A stretch of DNA of 64,000 nucleotides. Origin: Caldilineales bacterium (GTDB taxonomy: Bacteria > Chloroflexota > Anaerolineae > J102). This document shows positions 29,346 to 43,245 of the stretch, piece after piece. The notes beneath the pieces are model-generated. The model was not told where the DNA came from and searched no databases. It saw only the letters and a list, made by a program, of their open reading frames with translations. Made by a program: the position numbers and the translations under genes. How positions within the stretch are numbered: the stretch's first letter is position 1; every line of letters starts with the position of its first letter. Location: assembly GCA_024102915.1 (NCBI GenBank), contig JAGFJG010000157.1, positions 1 to 64,000 of the forward strand. Reading direction: 5' to 3'.

Positions 29346-30179
29346 TTATTCTTGCAAATTGTATTCCCGATTCAGGAATGATCCTGTTTCAGTTCCCAAA
29401 GTGATGGATATCCCCCGGAAGAATGGCGGAATCTCGAAAAGTTCTTTGAAATTCGAGGTAGGCTGCTGCTTGAGTGGTGTCCAACGGTTGATCTGAGCAT
29501 TGATCTCAGGCGGGAGTGTGGATTGCCACTCGCGACGCTGCTCCTCATCCATGAGATAGTACGAGAAAATCATGCCATCGATGCCGGGGCTGCCAGGACA
29601 TTTCGCATCAATGTAGGGGACATCAAGAACCGAGCCTGAATTGGTTCCAGCATCCGTGACGTCGAGGATGAGATAGTCCGCCGCACTGAGCGCGTCTGCG
29701 TCCAATTCCAGCCCGGCAGTTTCGACAAAGGTCGAGATTTCGGCGTCATCCAACGTCATCAAAGCCGCAATCAACCCAGTACTACACCCGTCACCTGCTC
29801 CTTCGCCGGTCAGTGAACCCGTCGCTCTCACTGCCACGGCACTTGCGCCTGCGTCGATGATCGGGGACGGGCACGCGCCGGAGGAATTCGCTCGCTGTTT
29901 TTGAATGTCCTGTACCAATGTCGTGTCGTTTTCGCCGTTTGCCAGGATCATGATGGCATCCAGGATGACCGCCCGTTGGTGTTGAAAAGCGCAGTCTTCT
30001 GTGGCCTGAAAACGCGCGGCGAGTGCATTCGCTTTCTGCTGCAAAACCTGCACGGTTGTGGCGTAGTCGGAATTCCCTATCGACTGAGCTGCATTCGTGA
30101 CCGAGTGCGGCTGGATGGACCCCAGCGCAATTAGCGCCAGGGCAAACGGGATGATAGTTCCCAATTTTCGGACAATCAT
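29346..30179 (-). CDS. Secreted protein of unknown function
   Basis: A 277-residue protein with an N-terminal signal peptide (residues 1-30, MIVRKLGTIIPFALALIALG then an AA-type cleavage region). The mature part has four or more Cys (DCAFQ, SGACPSP, DGCSTG, AKCPG) that may form disulfides outside the cytoplasm, and an acidic middle (LDDAEISTFVETAGLELDAD). No family recognised. It begins nine bases after the stop of the membrane protein gene upstream and is the last gene of the accessory operon. It ends 65 bases from the trp promoter. Confidence 0.75.
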   Translation of the reverse strand: MIVRKLGTIIPFALALIALGSIQPHSVTNAAQSIGNSDYATTVQVLQQKANALAARFQATEDCAFQHQRAVILDAIMILANGENDTTLVQDIQKQRANSSGACPSPIIDAGASAVAVRATGSLTGEGAGDGCSTGLIAALMTLDDAEISTFVETAGLELDADALSAADYLILDVTDAGTNSGSVLDVPYIDAKCPGSPGIDGMIFSYYLMDEEQRREWQSTLPPEINAQINRWTPLKQQPTSNFKELFEIPPFFRGISITLGTETGSFLNREYNLQE

Positions 30180-30187
30180 AAGCGCAC

Positions 30188-30766
30188 CTATTTCTTGAGC
30201 AAGTCTGCTTCGGACAGTGACGTGGGCTGTTGCACTTGCTCGCAGACAGGCAGGGTGATGCCGCCGTCGGTCACCTCGACTTTGTCGTCAAGGAACATGA
30301 CGCTGAGGAGGATGATGGTGCTAAGAATCACGATCAGCAGGCCGGGAGAACTGGTCACAACCTTGAGCCGCATCGACTCACTGGCCGAAGCCTCTGCCTC
30401 GATGGGCGAATTTCGCACGCCGCGGATGACGATGATGCAGCCCAGCAAGAATCCGATTGTACCGATGAGAAAGCCCAGGCTGCGGCGCACAGCGTTGGTA
30501 GCGGTGGCGATACGGGCCTGCTGATACCGGTAAGCGATATTGGTAACCTGTGCCTTGACGTAATCAGTGCAGATGTCCGACCCGGACGGCGTCAGCCAAT
30601 CGCTGGCGAGTACGCTCTCCGCCTCCGGCTGTACGGTCTTGGTGTAGTGCTGATAAAAGAAGAGCGCGAAGACGGCGATCAGAATCACCGAGAAGACGTA
30701 GAGGATCAGGTCTTCGACGTTGAAGCCGCGCAGGAAGGGGGTGATGCGGTCGGGTTGATCATTCAT
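30188..30766 (-). CDS. Small membrane protein of unknown function
   Basis: A 192-residue protein with three predicted membrane segments (residues about 20-42, 96-115 and 140-160), a soluble loop with one Cys (SDICTDYVK) between the first two, and a C-terminal tail with LPVCEQVQ. No family recognised. ATG 30766 follows the LodB-like gene stop by 14 bases; the next gene follows within 8 bases. The membrane position and the secreted neighbour suggest the accessory operon has an envelope component. Confidence 0.72.
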   Translation of the reverse strand: MNDQPDRITPFLRGFNVEDLILYVFSVILIAVFALFFYQHYTKTVQPEAESVLASDWLTPSGSDICTDYVKAQVTNIAYRYQQARIATATNAVRRSLGFLIGTIGFLLGCIIVIRGVRNSPIEAEASASESMRLKVVTSSPGLLIVILSTIILLSVMFLDDKVEVTDGGITLPVCEQVQQPTSLSEADLLKK

Positions 30767-30780
30767 AGGATTTCTCTTCT

Positions 30781-32130
30781 TTAGATCGGCGCATATTTCA
30801 ATAAACCGTGATCAAAAGCGATCTGCACAAAATGGATGGCTCGCTCATCGGAGATGGGGCGTGTGAGTCTTTGTTTAAGCTGGGAAACAACTTGAAAAGC
30901 TGGCAATGGCGTTTCACAAATTCCGTGTATGCTTTCGTAATCGCTTTTCGTCATCACCGAATTCATCTGAGTGATATTCGTGTGATCAAAATCGCTACGT
31001 CGGAGCATGGTTTGTGGTTGAAGCGTGATTTTGCGTTTCACTGGGCCTGGCTGCTGCCGATTGCGCCAGAAGGGCTGATCTGGCCAGCGGTTCTCCTGCT
31101 GGTAGAAGGTCGAACGCTTGGCAAGGTAGTCTTCAAAATCCCAACAAAGATCGGCGGAGTAACTAGCAAGAGCGCTGCTGTCCCCGCCGATGTATCTTAC
31201 CGCTACATTTGCGGCTGCAAGCGCAGAACGAAGCGCTTTGTTAATCCCCATCGAAGAAAGTGGATCGAATGCCATCGCTGCATCGCCAACGGACAGCCAA
31301 CCATCTCCAACGACTCTGTCCATACGATAACTGTTGGCTGGTCGTACGATAACATCGTCGAGCTGATAGTCACCCAACCGATTCTGCACGTGCTTGGTGC
31401 GAACCATTTTCTCAGTCCAGAGTTTGCCAAGCGGCAAAGGCGAAGAGGAATGCAGGGGCGGATCGGTCATGAAAGCTGCCACCATGCGATTGTTTGGCAA
31501 GGGCGTCGCATACCACCAGCCATCCTCAACCGCTTCGATGAGCAATGTCGCATCCAGGTCGGTATTCGCCTTTTGCGTCGAGAGCCAGGCAATGAGTGCT
31601 TGCTGGCGATCGTACACAATGCGTTTTGCACCTAGTTTGCGAGAGATTGCGGAAGCACGGCCAGTAGCGTCGACCAGGAATGAGGCAAAGAGCGTCATTT
31701 TCCGTCCCTCGGCATCGATCTCGATCGACCACCCTTCACGTGTGCGAATGAGTGAGGTGACACGCGTGTTGTAGAGGATCTCTGCGTCTGCATCCTCCAC
31801 GGCACGTGCCAGCGAGTTATCGAAAGAACATCTGTCCAGGTTCCAGCCGTCGCCATAGGGGCTGAAGATGTATTCGCGTTCGTAAATGCCAGGAGTGCCC
31901 CAGGACGAGCGCACACCTGGGCAAGCCAGATGTCCGTCGGCGACGAATGCATCCCATAAACCCAGATTGCTCAACAAGAGACGAGATTCGGGCGACAAGT
32001 GTTCGCCCACACGCAGCGTACCGGGCTCGGCACGCTCCAATACCACTGCTTGCAGCCCACGTTGCTGTAAGGCCAGGGCGGAGGCATTGCCTGCAACGCC
32101 TCCGCCGATGACAACAACCTTATTTGTCAT
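30781..32130 (-). CDS. LodB-like FAD-dependent oxidoreductase
   Basis: A 449-residue flavoprotein of the LodB/tryptophan-halogenase-like group. The FAD Rossmann motif is VVVIGGGVAGNASALALQQR (residues 5-24). Further motifs are FLVDATGRASAISR near 150, GWWYATPLPNNRMVAAF near 205 and GWLSVGDAAMAFDPLSSMGI near 280. The halogenase Lys/Trp pattern WxWxIP is absent (the position reads GWWYATPLP), which fits LodB. LodB proteins are needed to build the cysteine tryptophylquinone cofactor of LodA oxidases. The ATG overlaps the LodA-like stop as ATGA, the expected pairing. Confidence 0.88.
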   Translation of the reverse strand: MTNKVVVIGGGVAGNASALALQQRGLQAVVLERAEPGTLRVGEHLSPESRLLLSNLGLWDAFVADGHLACPGVRSSWGTPGIYEREYIFSPYGDGWNLDRCSFDNSLARAVEDADAEILYNTRVTSLIRTREGWSIEIDAEGRKMTLFASFLVDATGRASAISRKLGAKRIVYDRQQALIAWLSTQKANTDLDATLLIEAVEDGWWYATPLPNNRMVAAFMTDPPLHSSSPLPLGKLWTEKMVRTKHVQNRLGDYQLDDVIVRPANSYRMDRVVGDGWLSVGDAAMAFDPLSSMGINKALRSALAAANVAVRYIGGDSSALASYSADLCWDFEDYLAKRSTFYQQENRWPDQPFWRNRQQPGPVKRKITLQPQTMLRRSDFDHTNITQMNSVMTKSDYESIHGICETPLPAFQVVSQLKQRLTRPISDERAIHFVQIAFDHGLLKYAPI

Positions 32131-33659
32131 CCCACACGCTTCCTACGCGGTCCTCGTTTTCTGGGAACTCGAATGTCTCCAGCGCCCAAAGCCGCCGCAT
32201 GCAGATGTGCTAGTTGAGCGTCATCGCGACCGACTTCGGTGAATCCCTGGCCATCAGCAGTCGGCAACGCGAAACCTAGATTATTAACATGTTCGACCAT
32301 ATCCTCGTAGCTACCGATGCTTCGCGTCCATTCTTTCCCTGATATCGCATTGGCTTGCCCGCGGATAATGTCCGGTCGTTGTGTCGGCCACCAAGAGGTT
32401 GCACATGCCCAGAAATCAGCTTGCCAGGGGAGCGCCATCAGCGCAGTTACATCACCTGCGCTCAATTTCGTGTGATCAAATCGAAAATCAAATGGCGTGT
32501 TGTAGAGGTCTTTTAGAGTAACAATGATTCCAGCTTCGATACCTGGATAGAATCCCTGACCAACGCATGCCTCCAGAGCTGCTCGCGTCAGGCCAGGCGG
32601 GGCAATGTCCCGATCAATGGATGGCGTTCCCGCCCAATCATCCTGGACTTCGCCGGCCTCCCAACGTTTAAGGACGGCCAATTGAAAGTCCCGAAGCGTT
32701 ACCGCGGACAATGGCTGATTGCGTATTAGCGCAGCTGTCTTCTTCCGCAGGTCTTGCGCCATATCAGAAGCATCACTGAGCGACTGATAGTCATTGCTGA
32801 TCAGACTCCAGTAATCTGGGTCGCCAGTTGGATCCCCCGAAACATCATTCACCCAGTGTAAATCGCTGGCACGTTTAATCAGCGGATAGACGTGCTGGGT
32901 AAAGGATAGTTTTCCAGGCAACTGCAAATCGCCGACTTGAAAGAGTACATCGTAGAGTGTAACAACAGGGGTCACAGTGGGGGCGAAATCTGGCGGCCCA
33001 ACTACAACCCACGCTGGTTCGATCTGCTCAATGGGTATCAGTGCCGATCCATCGCTTGCTACAATCTCGGCTCTCACCGGACCATCGCTGACGTCATCAA
33101 ACCAATCTCGATTCGTGTAAAACGAATTGATTGGCCCCTGACCCACTGATTTGCCCTTGCCGCCAAGCACCATGAGATTTTGCGCGCCATCTGTGCGTAT
33201 TTCGCCTAAATAAGAGGGGTGCGGTTCGGCAGGAAGAATGCCGGTCGTAAATGTGACCGGTGTCGCAGATTCGCCCTGAATCGAGCGTTGCCCGCCATCC
33301 AAAACCTTATCGCCTTTAGTCTTGGCAAGCTGCGGCACAGTTGGGGTTCGAGGCGGGGATCCTGGCCGGTTGATTGCAGATTTCTTGTTGACAAGGTGGA
33401 CATGCCATTTGATCTGTGCGCCGTCTGGCAGTTCAAACAGTGTGCCTGCGTCCGAGTCATCTGCAAATTCGAAGATGCGAAAACGAGCGGCTTGTTTCTT
33501 CACCCGGAATTGGTTATCCTTGAAAGCCTGTACATCCCTCTCGATTCCAGCATCATCGATTTCAATTCCGCGACTGCCGGGCCACTCCGGCCCAATGAAA
33601 TACTCGTCGCTATTACCAATTCGGGCGATGCCGATGGGAGGAAAAATCTTATACTTCAT
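32127..33659 (-). CDS. LodA-like CTQ-dependent amine/amino-acid oxidase
   Basis: A 510-residue protein of the LodA/GoxA family, enzymes that oxidise the amino group of an amino acid (lysine epsilon-oxidase or glycine oxidase types) and release hydrogen peroxide, using a Cys-Trp quinone made in the protein. The start MKYKIFPPIGIARIGNSDE and FIGPEWPG are diagnostic. The block ALPWQADFWACATSWWPTQ holds Cys419 and Trp423/Trp424; Cys419 is a good candidate for the cofactor Cys, while the partner Trp cannot be assigned by eye. ATG 33659 has AGGA upstream. The substrate is unknown and the protein is shorter than characterised LodA. Confidence 0.88.
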   Translation of the reverse strand: MKYKIFPPIGIARIGNSDEYFIGPEWPGSRGIEIDDAGIERDVQAFKDNQFRVKKQAARFRIFEFADDSDAGTLFELPDGAQIKWHVHLVNKKSAINRPGSPPRTPTVPQLAKTKGDKVLDGGQRSIQGESATPVTFTTGILPAEPHPSYLGEIRTDGAQNLMVLGGKGKSVGQGPINSFYTNRDWFDDVSDGPVRAEIVASDGSALIPIEQIEPAWVVVGPPDFAPTVTPVVTLYDVLFQVGDLQLPGKLSFTQHVYPLIKRASDLHWVNDVSGDPTGDPDYWSLISNDYQSLSDASDMAQDLRKKTAALIRNQPLSAVTLRDFQLAVLKRWEAGEVQDDWAGTPSIDRDIAPPGLTRAALEACVGQGFYPGIEAGIIVTLKDLYNTPFDFRFDHTKLSAGDVTALMALPWQADFWACATSWWPTQRPDIIRGQANAISGKEWTRSIGSYEDMVEHVNNLGFALPTADGQGFTEVGRDDAQLAHLHAAALGAGDIRVPRKRGPRRKRVG

Positions 33660-33753
33660 GGTTCTAGATATCCTGTTATGTGATAGTTGAGATGAGATAA
33701 GCGAAGTTGCGACCGAGCCACAGGTGATGTGGTTCGGTCGCTGAGTGCAGCTA

Positions 33754-35232
33754 TCAGTCAGGGCAGCCTTCATCGATCCACAGGCGGATTTCCTCGATCT
33801 CGTAATCGGGGAGATAGGGCCCGTCGAGTGGCATACGCCCGAAGCCCTGAACCCCCTCATCGGCTTTGAGCGAGATTACAAGATTCGTCTGCGCACCCTG
33901 CCCCGTTCCGATCATGGTTGGTTCAATCAAACGGAATACCCGGCCAAACCTGGCTTCGGCAGCGAGTAATTCTGCTTTTGTTCCGAACTTGAAACCTGCA
34001 CCATGACGCCCCAGATGGGGAGAATGACCATGTTGCTGTGTCCAGGCGTTTACGATTCCGTCGAGGATTTCCTTCACCCTCGACCAACCAATTTGCGCAT
34101 CATACACAAAACCCATCCGGGCATGATTCAGTGCGCCAAGAGGAGTTCGCTCCTCAAGCATGCCAGGTTGGTTCCAGGGTTCCATACTGACATCGTCGAG
34201 GGGGTTATTCCCTTGGCCATTCCAGGGCCACATAGAATCTTTCAGATTATGGCCGCTTGGTTGGCGCGTCGTCTTCCAGGTTGTTTCAGGGATGAGACCA
34301 TCCCAGAAATAGTCGACAGTTTGCTGCTCTTCCGGATAAGGCAGATTAGGATTGGCCGCCAACCAGTCGGCGCGGCGATCAGACTGCCATTGCGCCCATA
34401 ACCGGTCGATGTTGCAGTGTAGCAACCAAAATGCCGGGTCGTTGGCAGTAGTCGCAGGCGGCATTGCCGCTCCACCCAGCCACATGTGAGCAGCGCCGTG
34501 AGGACCAAATTCGAGTCGTGACCTGAATCCATTGCCTGCGCCTGGCGGATCGTCCTGGTACTGCCTGATCTGCATGATGGCTGATGGATCGCCCGTGAAC
34601 TGCAAGTTCGAAGAATCAAACTCTCGAGTGAGGCCCCAATCTTTGTACGGTCCATTCTTTACCTTACCACCATCTGCCTGGTCGCCATTTCCACCCAGCA
34701 AGTCATCGCTGAATACCAGTGAGTTACCCTGGTTGTCATCGTTGTTTCTGGCCCAATTCCAATAAGGCAGGGCGATGTTCCCGTCATTACCCAGGTCTCG
34801 ATCAGCTTCTTGCATTGCAAGTTCAAAGTCTTGCAACAGTACCCGGTGCCAGGGAAAGAACGCCGGTCCACGATGGCCGGGATCCCATCCGTTCGCGTGG
34901 ATTTTGGCTAAAGTCTGATAGGTTCCCTGGTCATGCATGCGTAACAGCGCATCTGTGAATCGCTTTCGCTGACTGGTGTCAAGCAATGCGGCATCTCTGC
35001 GTATGACAACTGTTGACGCTATTGCGTGGGCAACTAGATTTTGATGCACTACGATGGCGTTGCCCAGGTCTTCGATATTGTCGAAGATACCAAAGACTTT
35101 GGGCGAGGCGAAGCCGCCAAACGCCTGGGAAATGTCGATGCCTTGTCCATTGATCTTGAGGACTGGTATTTCATTAACGGGCTCGTTTCCTTCGAGTACG
35201 AAACCCATGAACTCTTTTTTCCACTTCTTCAT
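33754..35232 (-). CDS. Tyrosinase (type-3 copper oxidase)
   Basis: A 492-residue copper enzyme oxidising phenols to quinones. The CuA site is in LLRMHDQG (His100), WDPGHRGPAFFPWHR (His120 and His129, nine apart as usual). CuB is EFGPHGAAHMWLGG (His near 245 and 249) and DPAFWLLHCNIDRLWAQW (His near 270). It has no signal peptide. The C-terminal 60 residues form a separate module ending LPDYEIEEIRLWIDEGCPD, similar to the tail motif of haem-less cytochrome-like domains in secreted proteins. AAGGAG lies before ATG 35232. It is followed after 94 bases by the LodA-like gene. Confidence 0.93.
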   Translation of the reverse strand: MKKWKKEFMGFVLEGNEPVNEIPVLKINGQGIDISQAFGGFASPKVFGIFDNIEDLGNAIVVHQNLVAHAIASTVVIRRDAALLDTSQRKRFTDALLRMHDQGTYQTLAKIHANGWDPGHRGPAFFPWHRVLLQDFELAMQEADRDLGNDGNIALPYWNWARNNDDNQGNSLVFSDDLLGGNGDQADGGKVKNGPYKDWGLTREFDSSNLQFTGDPSAIMQIRQYQDDPPGAGNGFRSRLEFGPHGAAHMWLGGAAMPPATTANDPAFWLLHCNIDRLWAQWQSDRRADWLAANPNLPYPEEQQTVDYFWDGLIPETTWKTTRQPSGHNLKDSMWPWNGQGNNPLDDVSMEPWNQPGMLEERTPLGALNHARMGFVYDAQIGWSRVKEILDGIVNAWTQQHGHSPHLGRHGAGFKFGTKAELLAAEARFGRVFRLIEPTMIGTGQGAQTNLVISLKADEGVQGFGRMPLDGPYLPDYEIEEIRLWIDEGCPD

Positions 35233-35270
35233 GATTGATACTCCTTGTGTGTGCTAAGCGTGATGGTGAC

Positions 35271-35714
35271 TCAGAGGCAACGCATCATGCAGAGCAGTTG
35301 GTTGAGCGCCTTGAACAGTTCACTCATGTGTGGTGACATATTGGTTTGCAGCCAGCGTTCAATGTCCTCCTTGATTTGCTGTGCAGCATAGAATTTTCCA
35401 TCTCCTTCCCCACCGAGGCCGCCAAAAGGTCCGTTGGGATCCCAGGCCCCAATAGCAGAGATCACGCGACACAGCATTTCGGGATCGAAGTTTTCCTCGA
35501 CAATCGCGTGCAGTTCAGCCAACAGTTCCTCATTGAGTAACTCATCAAATACGCGATTCCACATTTCCCACAATGGGCCTTTGAGTAGATCACTGGCTCG
35601 TTCATCTATTCTGCGATTGCCCAGTGTCCTGATCTCATGAAGGAGGAATTGCCAGGATTCGATGAAGTCATCGACAGTCATCTCATCGCAGGGTCGTAAA
35701 TTAGAAACAGCCAT
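35271..35714 (-). CDS. Protein of unknown function in the tyrosinase operon
   Basis: A 147-residue mostly helical acidic protein, MAVSNLRPCDEMTVDDFIES at the start, WNRVFDELLNEELLAELHAI in the middle, a Gly-rich turn NGPFGGLGGEGDG near residue 100 and LLCMMRCL at the end. Four Cys in total, three in the second half. No family recognised. GAGGAG stands before ATG 35714, and the next gene follows within 40 bases. It is a candidate partner, chaperone or substrate of the oxidases, by position only. Confidence 0.72.
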   Translation of the reverse strand: MAVSNLRPCDEMTVDDFIESWQFLLHEIRTLGNRRIDERASDLLKGPLWEMWNRVFDELLNEELLAELHAIVEENFDPEMLCRVISAIGAWDPNGPFGGLGGEGDGKFYAAQQIKEDIERWLQTNMSPHMSELFKALNQLLCMMRCL

Positions 35715-35776
35715 GATAGTCTCCTCAAGTAATGATAGGGCGAAATGGTACGACGGCTTCAATACACCGTCATGAT

Positions 35777-37183
35777 CTAGACAAAGTGGGTGAATGTTTC
35801 GTTAATGATTGCGGCTCTTTGCTCTCGGTAGACTGGGTCCTTGAGTCCAAATATCCGTTCAAAGGCGAACACTGTAGCAGCCAACGCATGGCGCGGTTCA
35901 ACTCCTTGCGCCTCATTGACGAAACCGGCTTCTCCTCCATAAATCGGATCAATTAGCGCGTCAACGATTCGTTGATCTCCGGCGGTAAATGTCCCCAGTT
36001 GTTCGTACGAATTGCCCCCTAGCGCAGCGAAATTTTGTTGCACCAACACTTTGGCAGCCAGCTTTGCCGATTTGATAAGTTCGCTGGTCTGAATCCGCGC
36101 CACCTCGATTCCATTCTGACCGATCACGTTTGCGCCACCAAGTTGGGAAAAGACTGAAATTGCAAACACGATTTCAGTTGGCTGAGGAGCCAAGGCATCC
36201 AGTCGAGTTTGCAGTTCGTCTGCCAGCGCGTTGTGGCTGCCGCCATCGATGAGCCGCAACACCTCTATACCGAGTACGTTGCGGATATAGGGTACAGGGT
36301 GTTCCTCGGGCGCATCCTCGATCACACCTGGCGTCGTTCCCTGAAATAGTAGCCAGGGATGCTGTTCCCGAAACTCGATGATTTGCTGCAATGTGACGAG
36401 AGCGGCTGCCCCGCAGTTCAGGTATCCGATCACGTCAGCCTGCGCCTCGTTCGCCCAGCCTCGCCAGACTGTAGCCAGGAAGTCTTCGCCAATGTATTGG
36501 ATGATTTTTGGTATACCTTGCGGATTCAGGTCCACGGTGACATCCGGGATCTGAACTTCAGAATTCTGCACCGCACTGCGCATAGCCGTTTCAAGTGCAT
36601 CTTCGACTTCGGCTGGCAGGCCCCTCACACTGGCATACAGGTCATGCCCAGTTTCATGAGGCAATGCCAACCATCTCCAAACATGATCGAATGCTGTATG
36701 TGGCAGATTGATAATGGCGAACGGTCGCTGCAAGGTTCGGGGGATTGAGAAGTAAGCGCTCGGACCTCCTTCCCCACCATAAACCAAGGGCTTGGCAATC
36801 CTTGAGTAAGAAACTTGATTCCCAGGAATCGTTCGCACAAAACGATCAAAAATGTTCGCCACAACTTTGTCGGCTGTCCGTAATTCAACAGGTGTGACAC
36901 CGGAGTATCTTTGCATAACTGATTCCCGGTACAGGTCCCACCACCCCACCAGTGCATTCAGATATGCCCAATTGCCAGATGACCGCGCAGCCTTTGTTTC
37001 AGTGGCGAAGAAGACAGACATTGCCCGAAGGTTTTCCTCATAGGCCGCCAATCCAGGTGTTTTTCGAGCAAGGTCGATAACCCGTTCCACTTCATGGATG
37101 TCGACCTCCACGCGCCGTTGGTTTTCCTCCTGCAGTTCTTTCCACTTCTGTATATCATTCAGTTTGCTATTCAGCGTAGCCAT
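35777..37183 (-). CDS. Gluzincin-like putative metallopeptidase
   Basis: A 468-residue protein with a zinc-peptidase-type site: HETGHD (His176, Glu177, His180, Asp181) and a downstream NEAQADVIG with Glu246 and Asp250, the HExxH ... ExxxD arrangement of gluzincins. Flanking segments (NLPHTAFDHVWRWLALP before, WRGWANE before the second motif) do not match a family I can name. No signal peptide, so a cytosolic enzyme is likely. Context with tyrosinase and LodA-like genes suggests processing of a protein partner; this is inference. Confidence 0.8.
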   Translation of the reverse strand: MATLNSKLNDIQKWKELQEENQRRVEVDIHEVERVIDLARKTPGLAAYEENLRAMSVFFATETKAARSSGNWAYLNALVGWWDLYRESVMQRYSGVTPVELRTADKVVANIFDRFVRTIPGNQVSYSRIAKPLVYGGEGGPSAYFSIPRTLQRPFAIINLPHTAFDHVWRWLALPHETGHDLYASVRGLPAEVEDALETAMRSAVQNSEVQIPDVTVDLNPQGIPKIIQYIGEDFLATVWRGWANEAQADVIGYLNCGAAALVTLQQIIEFREQHPWLLFQGTTPGVIEDAPEEHPVPYIRNVLGIEVLRLIDGGSHNALADELQTRLDALAPQPTEIVFAISVFSQLGGANVIGQNGIEVARIQTSELIKSAKLAAKVLVQQNFAALGGNSYEQLGTFTAGDQRIVDALIDPIYGGEAGFVNEAQGVEPRHALAATVFAFERIFGLKDPVYREQRAAIINETFTHFV

Positions 37184-37246
37184 TCTTTGTCTCCTAATGG
37201 GTAAGTAATTAGACTTGTTCGTTCGGGTCCGTATCCCGGTTCCGCA

Positions 37247-37849
37247 CTACATCAACGTCAACGGCGCCAGGAACCATTCAAGGATATTGCCCCCGCTCAC
37301 CCAGCCCGACTGAGCGGCAGGATGAAGCGATTTCACCTGCCACCACACCATCTTGCTGTCGCATTCGGGGCCGCCGGTGATCTCCACGATTGAGCCGGTG
37401 CGCAGCCCGCCGACACGAGTGGCGTTGGGGGCGGAGTTTCGCCTGACATTGAGGCCGTCCTTGGGCAATACATAGGCCTGTTGGCCTGACTGGAGGTTCG
37501 TGTCAAGCGTCGTGCCCATCGTGTCCAGGCATCCGACGCTCGGCGGCATCCGGCGCAAGAAGGCGGTACTGTTTTCACTCGCCGCCGACCAGCCTTCGAT
37601 CACCTTGAAGCGACCATCGGCGGTCTTGGTTTCGGTGCGACCGCGCACATACCACCACAAGAATCCGCCAGCCGAATGCGGATAAGCGCCCTGCCAACCA
37701 GCAGGCTTGGGCAGAATCGCCAGCACCGCATGCTCCGGGATTTTGCCCTTGATGCGAGCGCCGATCTTAGGGCTTCGGCGGACGTTGTTGGGGCCACCCT
37801 GCCCGGCAATGACGACCGCCAGGTCGCCGACTTGAAGTGTGTGAGCCAT
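37247..37849 (-). CDS. SH3-like domain protein
   Basis: A 200-residue protein with two small beta-barrel (SH3_3-like) domains: MAHTLQVGDLAVVIAGQGGPNNVRRSPKIGARI onwards and, near residue 125, a block including DGLNVRRNSAPNATRVGGL then KMVWWQVKSLHPAAQSGWVS. The 'NVR..P...' and 'WW.V.' patterns are typical of bacterial SH3 domains, which bind peptides or glycans. No signal peptide is seen, so it is probably cytosolic. AAGGAG precedes ATG 37849. Second gene of the putative operon. Confidence 0.82.
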   Translation of the reverse strand: MAHTLQVGDLAVVIAGQGGPNNVRRSPKIGARIKGKIPEHAVLAILPKPAGWQGAYPHSAGGFLWWYVRGRTETKTADGRFKVIEGWSAASENSTAFLRRMPPSVGCLDTMGTTLDTNLQSGQQAYVLPKDGLNVRRNSAPNATRVGGLRTGSIVEITGGPECDSKMVWWQVKSLHPAAQSGWVSGGNILEWFLAPLTLM

Positions 37850-37939
37850 GATGTGTCTCCTTGCTGAGTGTGGGTGAGTCGGCTGCAAAGTTTCAGCCGC
37901 CTGATAGTTGAGACAGATGCCAACCTCCGCTGAAATCTG

Positions 37940-38371
37940 TCACAGGTTCGTGGACAATTCTCTGATGAATTCAAAAATCGCTTCTCCGGTCGGATAAACG
38001 GTCATCTCATCGGGCGGGATCAGGGCTGTACCGGGTGCGGTCTCAGCGCCTGCTGCCACGATCCTGGCGCCGCAATCGCGCACGTCGGCCAGAAAACGGA
38101 GCAGGCGGGGGTCATGGGCAAATGGAGCGAGGAGCGAGATGTCGGCGGGGATGATGAGGCAGGCCGTGCGTCCGGCCAGTCGCAGGGCGTCATCGAGATG
38201 GATGTCCGGCTTCAGGGCCACGCCATGAGCGCCGGTGATATGCTGGCCGCGCAGGCCGACGACTTTGACGAGCGCCCCCGCCGAGCGCAACTCCGAAACG
38301 AAAATGGCGGCGGAGGCCTCATCGAACTGCGCCCCCCAGAGGAGGAAGACATAGCGGGTACGTCGTGCCAT
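37940..38371 (-). CDS. DJ-1/PfpI-like protein lacking the nucleophile Cys
   Basis: A 143-residue protein resembling the DJ-1/PfpI superfamily: RYVFLLWGAQFDEASAAIFVSEL and GAHGVALKPDIHLDDAL, then ACLIIPADISLL. At the position where active members have the Cys elbow, this one reads RIVAAGAETAPG (residues about 106-117), so the catalytic Cys is missing. It may be a binding or regulatory version. Start placed at ATG 38371; upstream TTG is less likely. First gene of the minus-strand accessory operon, divergent from the STAND ATPase. Confidence 0.7.
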   Translation of the reverse strand: MARRTRYVFLLWGAQFDEASAAIFVSELRSAGALVKVVGLRGQHITGAHGVALKPDIHLDDALRLAGRTACLIIPADISLLAPFAHDPRLLRFLADVRDCGARIVAAGAETAPGTALIPPDEMTVYPTGEAIFEFIRELSTNL

Positions 38372-38467
38372 GGTGATGCTGGCGGCACCCCTGTTTGCCA
38401 ATCCCCGATGAGGAAGGGTGGATGCGAACAGGGGGAATGCCTTTGTATTGACGATAGCAGCAATCCC

Positions 38468-38517
38468 CTATCCACGAGCTATCCACAACCTATCGCCCGC
38501 CTTACCCCTATCGCCCG
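38468..38517. promoter_or_regulatory. Phased CTATC direct repeats in a divergent intergenic region
   Basis: CTATCC at 38468 and 38479, CTATCG at 38490 and 38508; the first three are spaced by exactly 11 bases, the last by 18, and the final two share CTATCGCCCG. Located in the 283-base gap between the divergent DJ-1-like and STAND genes. It could be an operator; the pattern also resembles weak DnaA boxes (CTATCCACA). Confidence 0.4.
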
Positions 38518-38654
38518 ATTTGCGATTGCCCTGCTCGAAAGTGCATTTGGCAGGCGATTTACTCCATGTTATGCTCGATGCGCCTCCGGGCGCACAGCCT
38601 CGTGCAACCCGAAGGCGTTCACACAGGTTTGTTCACCGCCCAGCAGGAAGGCAA

Positions 38655-40076
38655 ATGCAGATTGGTTTCGAGGAGCAAACGGCAGAAAAGCTTCAGCCAG
38701 AAATACACCGGTTCCTGGCAGGATGGGGGGGCGGCGCGGCTGCCGGTTCTTTGGGCAAGATGCAATTGGTGCGGCAGGCAGCGCGCCAGCGCGACCTCAG
38801 TTCCCTGCAGGCAGTCGCACGCATACTGGTCGAAGGCATCGATGAGTTGGCATCGCGCAAGCCGGAACAGGCGCAAATCTTGCGGCTGCGCTTTCTGGAT
38901 GGCCTGGCCATGCACGTTGTCGCCAATCGCATCAATCGCTCTGAGCCGGCGGCCTACAAATTACAGCGTAAAGCCCTGCGCAGCTTGACCGATATTATCT
39001 ATCGCCAGGAGTTGGCGCTGAAGGCGGGGCGCAACGAGGCCATATTCGCCAGGCTGGGCGCGCCGGAATACGACCGGCTTTTCGGCATCGACGAACTGCT
39101 GAGCAATGTTATGGAATTGGTGCAATCGCCGAGCCAACCCTGGCTGATTTTGTTGGAAGGGATTGGCGGCATCGGCAAGACAAGCCTGGCTGATGCCCTG
39201 GTGCGCAAGGCGGTGGTTGCCGGCGTGGTCGAGCACGTGGGTTGGGTCACCGCTCGTCGCCAGATTTTCCGCCTCAGCGGTCGTATCGACGCCGCCAAAA
39301 CACCCACGCTCACCACCGCAGCCCTGGTCGAAAATCTAGCTAATCAGATATTGCGTGACACGCCCCTGCCTGTGCCCTTCACTGTCGAACAGGTCTTGCC
39401 TCTTCTACGCCAACGCCTGAACGAAGAACCGCATCTCATCGTCGTCGATAATCTAGAAACCGTTGTCGATCTGGAGACGCTGCTGCCCGCCCTGCGTCTG
39501 CTCGCCCGCCACTCCAAAATCCTCCTCACCTCGCGGCGCAGCCTGCTGGCCGAAGCGCATCTCTACCACTGCCAGATACCCGAACTCAGCCCTGAGAGCG
39601 CATTCGCCCTCTTGCGCCACGAAGCCCAACTTCGCAACGTTCATGCCCTGGCTGCGGCGGATGACGACGCCCTACACGCTATCTATGCCACCGTGGGCGG
39701 CAATCCCCTGGCCTTGCGATTGGTGGCAGGCCAGACCCTTGTCCACGACCTCCCGTCTATCCTCGTCGCCCTCACGAACGCCCGCGGCGAGAGCGCCAGC
39801 CAGCTTTACAATTTCATTTATCGCAACGCCTGGGACAGCCTGGACGAAATCGCCCAACGCACGCTGCTTGTCATGCCCCTGGCTCCGCCGCAGGGATTGG
39901 TCTTCCCATTGTTAGCTCAAACTAGCGGCCTGGCTGAAAGCGAATTGTACGACGCCCTCGATCGACTGGTGCGTCTGAACCTTATTGACCGCCGCGGCGA
40001 TCTGGAAAACGGTCGCTATTCCATCCACCCGCTCACCCAGAGCTTCCTGCAAGAACAGGTGTTGCGTTGGAAATGA
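38655..40076 (+). CDS. HTH-STAND (NB-ARC type) NTPase
   Basis: A 473-residue STAND-family signalling ATPase. Residues about 73-115 form a sigma-region-4-like helix-turn-helix (ILRLRFLDGLAMHVVANRINR, SEPAAYKLQRKALRSL). The NTPase has a Walker A GIGGIGKTSLADAL (Lys175) and a Walker B LIVVDNLE (near 262), then GGNPLALRLVAGQ near residue 350, the GxP motif of NB-ARC/GLPL type, and a winged-helix end (YSIHPLTQSFLQEQVLRWK). I chose ATG 38655 with AGGAAGG just upstream. Sensor repeats are not fused but encoded by the next gene, whose ATG overlaps this stop as ATGA. Confidence 0.9.
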   Translation: MQIGFEEQTAEKLQPEIHRFLAGWGGGAAAGSLGKMQLVRQAARQRDLSSLQAVARILVEGIDELASRKPEQAQILRLRFLDGLAMHVVANRINRSEPAAYKLQRKALRSLTDIIYRQELALKAGRNEAIFARLGAPEYDRLFGIDELLSNVMELVQSPSQPWLILLEGIGGIGKTSLADALVRKAVVAGVVEHVGWVTARRQIFRLSGRIDAAKTPTLTTAALVENLANQILRDTPLPVPFTVEQVLPLLRQRLNEEPHLIVVDNLETVVDLETLLPALRLLARHSKILLTSRRSLLAEAHLYHCQIPELSPESAFALLRHEAQLRNVHALAAADDDALHAIYATVGGNPLALRLVAGQTLVHDLPSILVALTNARGESASQLYNFIYRNAWDSLDEIAQRTLLVMPLAPPQGLVFPLLAQTSGLAESELYDALDRLVRLNLIDRRGDLENGRYSIHPLTQSFLQEQVLRWK

Positions 40077-41260
40077 CTCAGCCCCTGGACGCGCCTGCAC
40101 TCTTTCAGACCTATGTGCAGCGCATGGCTGAAAGCGCCATCATCCAGATCCAGGCAGCAGGCCAGGGTTTGCCCGGCGAAGCCGAGCGCGACCTGGCGCT
40201 TACCACGTTGAATTACGCACTAAGCGCGCCAGACGGCTGGTCTGCCGCCAGCCGCTTGCTCATCAATCTCGCCCCCAAGATGGAGCAGGCGGGCCATCGT
40301 CAGGAATGGATCGAATACCTTGAAGCGGGGATTGACCGGAGTCAATCTTGTGGCGATGTCGCAACCGAGGCCGAGTTACGGCTGCAACTAGGCGTGCTCT
40401 ACCAATTGATGTCCGCACTCGTGTCTTCTCGAAACCAATTGACTCGCAGCGCCGAACTGTTTGCCGGTCTGAACGATACCCTGGGTCAGGTACGGGCGCT
40501 CAACCGCCTGGCCCGTACGGCTGTGCAACAAGGCGATTTTGATACAGCGGAACGCATGGCGAATCGGGCGTTGCAGCTGGCCGATGATGAAGCTGAGCAC
40601 GCATACGGCTGGCTGGTGATGGGCACGGCGTTCCTGTTTCGTAGAGAATGGGATGAGGCCGCTGCGTTCTACGAGAAGAGCCTGGCTGTTTGGGAACGGG
40701 GAGGCGATAAGCGGATGATGGCCTGGGCCAACACCAATTTAGGCTCAGCGTATCGCAGACTTGATGAATTTACAAAAGCACGCCAACATCTGAAACTGGC
40801 GAGCGCTCTCTTTGCTGAAATCGGGGACCCGGTGCATCAAGCAAAAAGCGAACTTGCTCTGGGAAACACCTTCGTAATGACTGGCGATTATGGTCAAGCG
40901 TTGCAGCACTATCGACCAGCAGAACGCACCTTTCGTCTTGCCCAGAACAAGCCGGACCTAGCACTGACCTATTTGGGCATAGGATCGTGCTACCGTCACC
41001 TGAGCAGGTGGCAAGAAGCCGAACAGACCTATCGGGCTTGCGCCGCAATCTGGCAAGAATTGGATGATTCAGCAAAAGCCGCCAACGCCATCAGCAACAT
41101 CGGCCTGATTCATCTAGCCCAGGGGCGCCATGCGGAGGCGATAGCCCATTTCAAGCAGGCGCTACAAATGCTTTCTCAGGCGCCAGACGCACCGGAATAT
41201 GCCGATTTTTCGGCGGAGTTTTCCGGCTATCTGCGGCGGGCGCGGGGAAAAGGACCGTAG
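40073..41260 (+). CDS. TPR repeat protein partner of the STAND ATPase
   Basis: A 395-residue protein made of about six to eight tetratricopeptide repeats (ALNRLARTAVQQGDFDTAERM, AWANTNLGSAYRRLDEFTKA, ALGNTFVMTGDYGQALQHY, AISNIGLIHLAQGRHAEAIA among them). TPR repeats bind proteins and, in STAND proteins, are the usual sensor part. Here they are on a separate polypeptide, so the ATPase and its repeats look like a split STAND protein. ATG 40073 overlaps the ATPase stop (ATGA). No terminator is seen before the convergent small gene. Confidence 0.88.
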   Translation: MTQPLDAPALFQTYVQRMAESAIIQIQAAGQGLPGEAERDLALTTLNYALSAPDGWSAASRLLINLAPKMEQAGHRQEWIEYLEAGIDRSQSCGDVATEAELRLQLGVLYQLMSALVSSRNQLTRSAELFAGLNDTLGQVRALNRLARTAVQQGDFDTAERMANRALQLADDEAEHAYGWLVMGTAFLFRREWDEAAAFYEKSLAVWERGGDKRMMAWANTNLGSAYRRLDEFTKARQHLKLASALFAEIGDPVHQAKSELALGNTFVMTGDYGQALQHYRPAERTFRLAQNKPDLALTYLGIGSCYRHLSRWQEAEQTYRACAAIWQELDDSAKAANAISNIGLIHLAQGRHAEAIAHFKQALQMLSQAPDAPEYADFSAEFSGYLRRARGKGP

Positions 41261-41304
41261 GGAGGCAAGACGCCCGACTGACAAACGCCTTGCCCTAACC
41301 CATT

Positions 41305-41487
41305 TCAGCATGCCGTATCGCCGCAATCCTCGATAAACTGCATAGCGATCTGGTTCTGATCTCGCATTTGAACTGTCTCTGGCGACAAGGACGAACGCGC
41401 CAGCGGCGCCAGTTGCAGTAGCAATTGTGCGACGAGCAATACAGCGATGAGACGTATTTCGAGCTTCTGATTGGATTGTGTTTTCAT
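41305..41487 (-). CDS. 60-residue membrane or secreted peptide
   Basis: Starts MKTQSNQKLEIRLIAVLLVAQ with one hydrophobic segment (residues 12-30) and a 30-residue tail that ends EDCGDTAC, giving two Cys four residues apart from each other at the C-terminus. ATG 41487 is preceded by GGAGAGAATCACC, a good ribosome site. No family recognised. It points away from the sigma-factor gene across a 302-base divergent gap. Possible roles are a membrane-anchored signal, leader or toxin-like peptide, all speculation. Confidence 0.62.
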   Translation of the reverse strand: MKTQSNQKLEIRLIAVLLVAQLLLQLAPLARSSLSPETVQMRDQNQIAMQFIEDCGDTAC

Positions 41488-41789
41488 GGTGATTCTCTCC
41501 AAGGTAGATGGAGGATTCACCGGTGCAATGGTATCCCGCCGCCACAAATCGCGGCGACACACGTGTTTGTCCCGATAAACCCGAAGGGCGGTTGCAATGA
41601 GATGTGACCGGCTGGATGCTCGCTCTATCACCGCGATCAACACAGATGCGCCGCCCGTCCGATTCCTGTCACCAGCACACAACCTGATTCACCGCATTCA
41701 CCATTCGCCTCCCTTTTGCCTCATCCCTGACTTACCTCTACAATGTTTCTAGGCTCACATTCGCCCTCAGCCAGAGGAGGCTCAGGCAC
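41488..41789. other. Divergent gap between small peptide and sigma-factor gene
   Basis: A 302-base region. I see a promoter facing the sigma factor (41716-41744) and the ribosome site AGAGGAGG at 41773-41780. The remaining 200 bases show no gene, RNA or repeat I can name. Confidence 0.6.
41716..41744 (+). promoter_or_regulatory. Sigma-70-like promoter for the sigma/anti-sigma genes
   Basis: TTGCCT (41716-41721), 17 bases, TACAAT (41739-41744). The hexamers match consensus at 4 and 5 of 6 positions. Transcription would begin near 41751, about 40 bases before the TTG start. Confidence 0.6.
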
Positions 41790-42458
41790 TTGAAATCGAA
41801 TCGGTCGAATTCGGATTGGCTGCACGAACTGAAAGGCGCGGCTGGCGTTCAGACGCAGCGCCAGGCCCACGAAGACCTGGCCAACTATCTCTACGTCGTG
41901 GCCTACAACTACCTGCGGTTGCGGCAGACTGATATCGCCGCGCTCGACCGATTTGCCGAGGAGGAGAAAGCGGCGCTCGCTCAAGATTTCGTGCAGGAAA
42001 CTCTGGAGAAACTGGCTGCAGATGACTTCGCCCTGCTGCAAAACTATCGTGGCGATGGTCGTTTTCTCAGTTGGGCGGCCAGCGTGGTGCGCAACCAGGC
42101 CGCGCAAGAATTACGGCGTTCTTATTGGACGCGGCGAATAGCCGGCTCGGTGGATGGCGAAGAAGAGTCGCCCCTCCCTTTGCTCACCCTGCCCGATCTC
42201 ACCCCGGCGTCCAATCCTGCCGACAGCCTGGAACAGCGCGAACTGGCATCAGCGCTGCAAGACTGTATCGAAGCCCTGCCCGAACGTTCTCGCCTCGCCT
42301 TCTGGTGGACGGTGGCCGAGGATATCCCCGCAGCCAGCGTCGCCGACCACTTTGAAACGACGGCCAACGCCATCTATCTGCTGGTGAGCCGCGCTCGCCG
42401 CCAGTTGCGAGAATGCCTGCAAGCCCGTGAAGTAACGCCCTTCGCTCTAGCGGCATGA
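41790..42458 (+). CDS. ECF-like RNA polymerase sigma factor
   Basis: A 222-residue sigma-70-family protein with regions 2 and 4 only. Region 2 is LAQDFVQETLEKLAADDFAL, then NYRGDGRFLSWAASVVRNQA (residues about 66-112). Region 4 is ALQDCIEALPERSRLAFWW, then FETTANAIYLLVSRARRQL (about 152-205). It uses a TTG start at 41790 with a strong ribosome site AGAGGAGG nine bases upstream and no nearby ATG. The linker is longer and more acidic than in common ECF factors. It is followed 77 bases later by the zinc anti-sigma-like gene, the usual arrangement of a sigma factor and its inhibitor. Confidence 0.88.
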   Translation: MKSNRSNSDWLHELKGAAGVQTQRQAHEDLANYLYVVAYNYLRLRQTDIAALDRFAEEEKAALAQDFVQETLEKLAADDFALLQNYRGDGRFLSWAASVVRNQAAQELRRSYWTRRIAGSVDGEEESPLPLLTLPDLTPASNPADSLEQRELASALQDCIEALPERSRLAFWWTVAEDIPAASVADHFETTANAIYLLVSRARRQLRECLQAREVTPFALAA

Positions 42459-42510
42459 GCCTCGTTGCGACAGATTCACTCTTGAGATCGCATCCATATC
42501 GTTGACGACT

Positions 42511-42538
42511 GAACATTGATGATTGAAGATTGACATGA
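42511..42538 (+). repeat. Single heptad array before the anti-sigma gene
   Basis: Units GAACATT, GATGATT, GAAGATT, GACATGA (42511-42538), the same family as the array at 21064. No inverted partner is seen. The array spans the anti-sigma ATG at 42535 and may act as its leader. Confidence 0.65.
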
Positions 42539-43245
42539 ACGATCCATACGCCGCCATCCTGCGTGCACTGCTAGAAGAGCCGCTTTCGCCGGCCTGTCGC
42601 CAGTGCCGCGACGATCTCTATGCCTATGCCGACGCGTTGGCGGATGGCGAGGATGCTAATGCCCGTTATCCGCTTGTGCGCCAGCACATCGACGAATGCG
42701 CGGCCTGTCGGGAAGCCTTTGCGGAGCTAATAACCTTGTTCGAGATGGAGCGGGATGGAAATCTGGCGACGCCGCCCGTGCCAGCTCGTTTCGATTACGC
42801 TTACCTGCCTGCTCCCAATACCCAGGCTAAACCTGTCTCTCGCTTCTGGCGACTGGATGAATTGGGGCGACTGGTCATTCAATTCTCGGCCGACCTGCTG
42901 CAAAGCTGGCAATCGCCCGCCCTACAGCCCGCCTATCTTAAGTCCGGGCAACCGGCCCCGATCTTCGAGGCGGAGATCGACGAGGGATTGGATGATCTGT
43001 CCGTCGCCATCGATGTCAAACCGCAGCGCCAGGACCCCGCCCTGCTCGATATCTCGGTCGGCGTCGATGTGCCCAGCCGTGGGGGTTGGCCCAACTTGGG
43101 CGGAATCGAAGTCCTGCTCAAGCGCGATGAGACCATCGTCGCACGCGAGTGGACCGACGCGTTCGGACAGATCGTTTTTTCACATGTGCCCCGATCGGAT
43201 GTCAACGACCTGATCCTTATCGTTACCCCGCCCGACCCGAACTGA
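42535..43245 (+). CDS. Zinc anti-sigma (ZAS)-like protein
   Basis: A 236-residue protein whose N-terminal part has the HxxxCxxC anti-sigma zinc motif HIDECAACREAF (residues about 46-57), preceded by a CRQC pair near residue 20, so it is a likely inhibitor of the sigma factor upstream. It has no membrane segment, unlike many anti-sigma factors. The C-terminal half (residues 140-236) is a beta-rich domain (SVAIDVKPQRQDPALLD, then REWTDAFGQIVFSHVP) that resembles a carboxypeptidase-regulatory-like fold. A cytosolic anti-sigma would be reachable by the neighbouring CHAT protease. Its 3' end overlaps the convergent CHAT gene by 23 bases. I chose ATG 42535. Confidence 0.8.
   Translation: MNDPYAAILRALLEEPLSPACRQCRDDLYAYADALADGEDANARYPLVRQHIDECAACREAFAELITLFEMERDGNLATPPVPARFDYAYLPAPNTQAKPVSRFWRLDELGRLVIQFSADLLQSWQSPALQPAYLKSGQPAPIFEAEIDEGLDDLSVAIDVKPQRQDPALLDISVGVDVPSRGGWPNLGGIEVLLKRDETIVAREWTDAFGQIVFSHVPRSDVNDLILIVTPPDPN

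Follow-up and report, generated by a model that had tools for sequence, protein, structure and literature searches.

Why should genes for a tyrosinase-type copper oxidase, for a LodA-like quinone enzyme with its LodB-like maturase, and for a protein bearing a HExxH motif lie side by side in a Caldilineales bacterium (Chloroflexota)? These genes, with one for a small orphan protein among them, occupy positions 30781-37183 of the stretch that we analysed (the window: 64,000 nucleotides, positions 1 to 64,000 of contig JAGFJG010000157.1 in assembly GCA_024102915.1). The analysis shows which genes are present, how they are ordered and composed, the residues of their active sites, a predicted LodA fold and a linkage of tyrosinase and LodA genes that recurs in other genomes. 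We favour the reading, to which we give an even chance, that the five genes are an acquired oxidation module in which two O2-dependent oxidases serve one pathway with a protease as partner. New here are a compact LodA, a tyrosinase link that is apparently apart from that of the published group ID of lodA operons, and an added HExxH protein whose family has no name. The five genes follow in their reading order, with G+C content at third codon positions (GC3):

35777-37183, minus strand: HExxH protein of 468 residues, from a gluzincin-like family without a name; GC3 0.531
35271-35714, minus strand: small orphan protein of 147 residues without a domain match; GC3 0.541
33754-35232, minus strand: tyrosinase-type type-3 copper oxidase of 492 residues (PF00264); GC3 0.568
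32127-33659, minus strand: compact LodA-like oxidase of 510 residues (PF17990 and PF18417); GC3 0.509
30781-32130, minus strand: LodB-like FAD maturase of 449 residues (NF038171); GC3 0.571

The LodA-like protein matches both domains of its family, LodA_N (PF17990; E 6.3e-49, 167.3 bits, cut-off 26.3) and LodA_C (PF18417; E 2.5e-22, 79.6 bits, cut-off 25). Its start is best set at the ATG at 33659, with a register shared with other LodAs from residue 1; a longer open reading frame (ORF) from 33860 would overlap the tyrosinase gene. An AlphaFold2 model (mean predicted local distance difference test, pLDDT, 88) matches the LodA structure 2ymw_B (VIA) with Z 40.1 over 458 residues, a root-mean-square deviation of 3.2 and about 31% identity in the structural alignment. 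LodA and GoxA structures as a group score Z 29.5-40.1, and all other folds, at Z 4.6 or less, are uninformative; the gamma chain of quinohemoprotein amine dehydrogenase (QHNDH) is absent from that list. The protein falls far short of both NCBIfam equivalogs, reaching 157 bits of the 600 set for LodA, the lysine 6-oxidase, and 187.7 of the 750 set for GoxA, the glycine oxidase, so a substrate cannot be assigned.

For comparison we collected the best 80 of 259 LodA loci found in species genomes and four more from plasmids (84 loci, numbered with the prefix L), and aligned the window protein with 34 of the 80. The predicted cysteine tryptophylquinone (CTQ) pair, C419 and W424, is invariant in all 35 rows and D415 is conserved in 34; in phmmer alignments D415, C419 and W424 correspond to D512, C516 and W581 of Marinomonas LodA. 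At one further compact LodA (L053, 912-2426) a glycine replaces the otherwise conserved aspartate ahead of the CTQ cysteine. The window protein thus resembles the Marinomonas mediterranea LodA/LodB system (EC 1.4.3.20) in LodA fold, in its CTQ Asp, Cys and Trp and in the adjoining LodB gene, whereas it has 510 residues instead of 726 and its cysteine and tryptophan are 5 rather than 65 residues apart. The distance is likewise 5 in 13 other rows, 9-15 in 14 and 16-18 in seven. The window LodA is therefore of a compact type with its predicted CTQ pair five residues apart, a spacing of which our searches of the open-access full-text literature gave no description, although one may have been published.

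A loop similar to the compact one is present in QHNDH, the one other CTQ enzyme among the PDB matches. When the 76-residue CTQ segment was compared with the PDB, LodA took ranks 1-2 and QHNDH gamma (QhpC) ranks 3-4 (E 0.0091 and 0.053), with unrelated chains starting at E 0.21. A profile of 13 of the 14 spacing-5 segments (L053 excluded) found LodA, GoxA and QHNDH gamma (1jmx_G, E 0.013), with one unrelated chain at E 4.9, so that below E = 1 it retrieved CTQ enzymes only; a profile of seven GoxA-type segments matched GoxA and LodA and not QHNDH gamma. The shared element is D-x3-C ... W-W-P-x-Q-x-P-D around the CTQ pair; the match extends over some 30 residues and is a weak one (E 0.009-0.05). 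QHNDH gamma differs from the window LodA in that it has 79 residues, belongs to a haem enzyme and carries three additional thioether bonds (PMC7876137). A likeness so weak and short may reflect common ancestry of the loop, or it may reflect convergence under one maturase family.

The candidate for such a maturase is the LodB-like protein, whose gene directly follows lodA, the arrangement described for lod operons (PMC4417212). It scores with the LodB model (maturase_LodB, NF038171; E 2.1e-80, 270.6 bits, under the equivalog cut-off of 400), with the GoxB model NF038174 (E 4.3e-79) and with the QhpG model NF049967 (E 1.5e-58), the last two also under their equivalog cut-offs. QhpG is described as dihydroxylating the CTQ tryptophan of QHNDH (PMC7876137). 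By homology, the window LodB would be a flavin monooxygenase akin to LodB, GoxB and QhpG and would mature LodA by converting W424 to a quinone joined to C419.

According to the same account, copper appears to be needed when the LodA tryptophan is first hydroxylated (PMC7876137). This remark would fit a different role for the copper oxidase, in which it helps to build the quinone on W424, either by hydroxylating that residue for the first time or by oxidising the catechol to the quinone, before or after LodB. Such a role would explain why tyrosinase genes repeatedly neighbour LodA genes, yet we consider it very improbable. A less far-reaching version would make the compact loop, D-x3-C-xn-WWPxQxPD, an ancestral docking sequence for the LodB/QhpG maturases that is common to LodA and QHNDH gamma, and a recognition sequence shared in this way could be tested with a short protein.

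In the favoured reading the tyrosinase is instead an oxidase in its own right. Its PF00264 domain is clear (E 5.1e-33, 115.7 bits, cut-off 22.6), its PDB matches are to the hemocyanin/tyrosinase group, and it has a C-terminal extension of about 190 residues; it misses the MelC2 equivalog, with 113.6 bits of 450. By motif, H112, H120, H129, H245, H249 and H272 are presumably the copper ligands. An asparagine after the first CuB histidine marks monophenol hydroxylases, and the residue after H245 is a glycine, which by this rule of thumb argues for a preference for diphenol over monophenol substrates.

How often are such genes linked to LodA? Within the stretches examined around the 84 loci, a tyrosinase gene is present at L015, L026, L028, L030 and L096. 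Two of these loci, L026 and L028, combine a multicopper oxidase with tyrosinase, LodA and LodB, like the published group ID, the oxidase being identified at L028 by Pfam (PF07731/PF07732) and at L026 by its similarity to that of L028, both of which are seeds of the profile. Tyrosinase, LodA and LodB occur together at L030 and at L129, the second LodA of the L018 genome, where 22 bases separate the first two genes. The link is looser at L015, where the genes are at least 7 kb apart with genes on both strands between them, and at L096, where 1.5 kb and a ferritin-like gene intervene. In 15 of the 84 loci a home-made profile finds a ferritin-like gene of the PF12902 type near LodA, often directly upstream (L014, L020-L023, L033, L037, L040, L050, L060, L067, L069, L070, L075 and L096).

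To set these links against chance, we took the 31 genomes searched with the tyrosinase family and left out the window's own genome (G000) and that of L096, both included because of the link. Tyrosinase is found in seven of the remaining 29 LodA genomes, with nine genes in all after pieces were merged by hand. Four of the nine adjoin LodA (L026, L028, L030, L129), against about 0.03 expected by random placement, a figure that is our own estimate from 20 kb in some 7 Mb. Around the remaining five no LodA is present within the stretch examined, which in two cases (L130, L133) is cut short by the end of the contig. Placing the link on a tree of 86 LodAs, where seven rows have it, takes seven changes, at least six of them by well-supported branches (a quick method, no bootstrap), a pattern that may reflect many losses after few gains.

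A tyrosinase in a LodA operon is not in itself novel, so that the original prediction is supported in part. A 2015 survey already reports tyrosinase and multicopper oxidase genes in the lodA operons of group ID, with a small gene of about 140 residues between lodA and lodB in all but one member (Campillo-Brocal 2015; PMC4417212). On that description the window run resembles group ID in joining LodA-like, LodB-like and tyrosinase genes and a small domainless gene, the two small genes being likened by size and lack of domains and not by sequence. It differs in that its small gene lies upstream of the tyrosinase gene, in having no multicopper oxidase among the nine genes of the run (by Pfam), and in its added HExxH protein; in M. 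mediterranea, moreover, the tyrosinase gene is distant from LodA. The tyrosinase-LodA pairing is thus recurrent, little studied and largely of a known kind, and the link in the window looks separate from that of group ID. The association noted in 2015 gains independent support here, with linked pairs in several phyla and at least six separate changes on the tree. In a phylum sample of 301 genomes LodA itself was found in seven, the window's own among them; that genome has a single LodA_C match and a single tyrosinase match, both at this locus.

Where does the module end? The original prediction had placed the five genes in an operon of nine, from 29346 to 38371, whose other members are:

37940-38371, minus strand: DJ-1/PfpI-like protein (PF01965, DJ-1_PfpI, E 9.9e-6, just below cut-off); GC3 0.729, host-like
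37247-37849, minus strand: SH3_3 protein (PF08239, E 6.8e-10); GC3 0.756, host-like
30188-30766, minus strand: membrane protein; GC3 0.777, host-like
29346-30179, minus strand: signal-peptide protein of 277 residues, without an assigned family; GC3 0.612, intermediate

The run itself is real. The minus strand carries all nine ORFs, with gaps, from the DJ-1 gene to the last, of 90, 63, 62, 38, 94, -4, 14 and 8 bases; the -4 is the ATGA overlap of lodA and lodB that had been predicted, and the tyrosinase, LodA/LodB and HExxH genes are adjacent and co-directional. A purine-rich GGAG or GGAGA stretch resembling a ribosome site was seen by eye 5' of each of genes 2 to 5. The absence of gaps longer than 94 bases on this single strand, and of any minus-strand promoter-like site between the nine genes in a promoter/terminator scan, would suit one host operon that includes the DJ-1, SH3, membrane and signal-peptide genes. 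In the same scan both minus-strand terminator-like hairpins (33260, 37027) are intragenic; its totals do not exceed those of shuffled sequence, so that it neither proves nor refutes a single transcript, although promoters between the genes had been named as grounds for rejecting the operon.

Composition draws the boundary more tightly. GC3 is 0.51-0.57 in the five core genes against 0.73-0.78 in the DJ-1, SH3 and membrane protein genes and 0.73-0.79 in the downstream trp genes; further low-GC3 ORFs are present in the window, some of them perhaps not genes. Because GC3 breaks at both ends of the five, the sequence suggests that they were acquired horizontally as a module in one transfer event, with the SH3 gene probably outside it. 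Two GC3 populations make a single nine-gene operon too wide a unit. Homologues of the DJ-1, SH3, membrane and last genes are, besides, absent from the LodA loci searched, and the last gene was found in one of 20 genomes of the order, its own. For these reasons we rejected the nine-gene run as the unit and regard a host operon of that extent as quite improbable. The last protein had also been described as Cys-rich, which does not hold: it has four cysteines in 277 residues and, like the HExxH and small proteins, no Pfam match.

What might the five-gene module do? Given the LodA fold, mature LodA would be expected to oxidise a primary amine, be it that of a lysine side chain or of a free amino acid, and to yield an imine or aldehyde together with ammonia and hydrogen peroxide. 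Given the copper domain, the tyrosinase-type oxidase would convert an o-diphenol or o-aminophenol to an o-quinone. The reactive carbonyl products of the two enzymes could then meet in one oxidised or cross-linked product. The HExxH protein, if a metalloprotease, might act on a partner, the simplest candidates being the 147-residue protein and the tyrosinase, the latter in its C-terminal extension; this step, the weakest, is a guess from motif conservation.

Alternatively, the peroxide itself could be the point, with LodA making it from a free amino acid in the manner of marinocine or AlpP for antagonism or biofilm dispersal, and with melanin or quinones from the tyrosinase adding to the effect or protecting the producer. 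The LodA fold and CTQ residues are in place, LodA-type enzymes have published antimicrobial and biofilm roles that depend on peroxide (PMC4699246 and PMC2855505), and M. mediterranea is described as co-regulating tyrosinase, multicopper oxidase and LodA (PMC4417212). We nevertheless think a peroxide weapon unlikely: no signal peptide is obvious by eye on any of the five core proteins, although Marinomonas LodA is secreted; the nine genes include neither transporter nor catalase by Pfam; and the identity to LodA is only about 31% in the structural alignment.

The protease step of the favoured reading depends on the HExxH protein. Its motif HETGHD (H176, E177, H180) is followed by E246 and D250 and by H295, P296 and R301, and these eight residues, with W243, are invariant in nine aligned members, in keeping with the HExxH...ExxxD protein that had been predicted. 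A profile of the eight other members scores the window protein at E 2.8e-23, and 2000 shuffled versions of it in the same set gave no match up to E 10. The family's invariant motifs, HExxH, ExxxD and HPxxxxR, come in the order seen in gluzincins such as M48. The protein has no match in Pfam, NCBIfam, PADLOC or PHROGs, and our searches of the open-access full-text literature turned up no account of the family, although one may exist in print. A first set of invariant residues is thereby available for a family that neither Pfam nor NCBIfam includes. The likeness to M48 and the gluzincin clan lies in the motif, HExxH with the third-ligand Glu of ExxxD; Pfam makes no assignment, and no profile match that reaches past the HExxH helix is significant.

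Members of the family are widespread. A three-sequence profile matched seven of 38 genomes or records, two being plasmids in the profile; tblastn on plasmids found two distant relatives; and a nine-row profile matched 10 of the 301 phylum-sample genomes, four of them, the window's own included, below 1e-40.

Several observations weigh against a common pathway for all five proteins. The HExxH gene is beside LodA at none of the best 80 of 259 LodA loci, its relatives elsewhere have other neighbours, and no homologue of the small protein occurs in the LodA loci searched. The hhalign comparison of the HExxH family with M48 covers the HExxH motif only (19 columns, probability 38%), and the single-sequence AlphaFold2 model of the protein (pLDDT 39) is useless. 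For the tyrosinase, too, the well-supported seven-row clade that contains the window LodA has no other row with a linked tyrosinase, four of its rows (L014, L020-L022) having the PF12902 ferritin-like gene instead, and the tyrosinase-link label is no more clustered on the LodA tree than shuffled labels.

Since the HExxH and small proteins accompany LodA nowhere else, these two may be passengers, co-transferred with a functional unit of tyrosinase, LodA and LodB and acting elsewhere. In five of 34 LodA genomes HExxH members lie on contigs other than that of LodA, and they also occur in the three other phylum-sample genomes below 1e-40 and in another conserved gene set. The shared low GC3, the single strand and the short gaps of 38-94 bases point the other way, and we treat passengers as a real possibility, if a doubtful one. 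As far as examined, then, the HExxH family is a broad one, and only in this genome does a member sit beside LodA; because that neighbourhood recurs at none of the 80 loci, the full five-gene set is so far private to it. Of the neighbourhood conservation that the original prediction had asked for, the tyrosinase-LodA part is borne out and the HExxH part, as far as examined, is not.

Other placements of these genes were tried and rejected. A scan of contigs with the single HExxH sequence for other LodA operons was blank, and the family profile, applied to L125, did not bear out a weak match at L003. The small protein (searched as a 163-residue ORF in Pfam, NCBIfam and PADLOC) has no match there, in PHROGs or on plasmids; as a candidate for the group ID small protein or a caddie protein it has no match in the loci searched, group ID sequences not being among them. 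PADLOC offered solely one marginal FAD-type match, to LodB (E 0.0093), towards a defence system, and for a phage origin neither the HExxH nor the small protein matched PHROGs and no HExxH relatives were found in viral contigs. An NB-ARC gene at 38418 was rejected as a partner: its pairing with the TPR gene is seen again in the family, and in the stretches examined no DJ-1 relative accompanies it. It opens a group at 38418-45376 (names partly by eye) in which an NB-ARC protein with a segment like sigma-70 region 4 is followed by TPR-like, extracytoplasmic function sigma-like and CHAT-like proteins.

The other conserved gene set of the HExxH family is a four-gene unit found in five genomes (L016, 8561-14681; L109, 7456-15563; L110, 5686-13072; L111, 1768-9210; L112, 5389-11786) and lacking from the window. 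It encodes an acidic-repeat protein with a CxxC near its end, the HExxH protein, a protein of 620-865 residues of two unlike types and a protein of 370-410 residues; seven L109 and L112 proteins were scanned with Pfam, and none scores above cut-off. On a Bradyrhizobium plasmid (L017, 1567-19309), two HExxH-family genes lie near genes for a phospholipase D, a patatin, two CHAT proteins and a GMC oxidoreductase, and at L147 a patatin-like gene, identified by eye, follows the HExxH gene.

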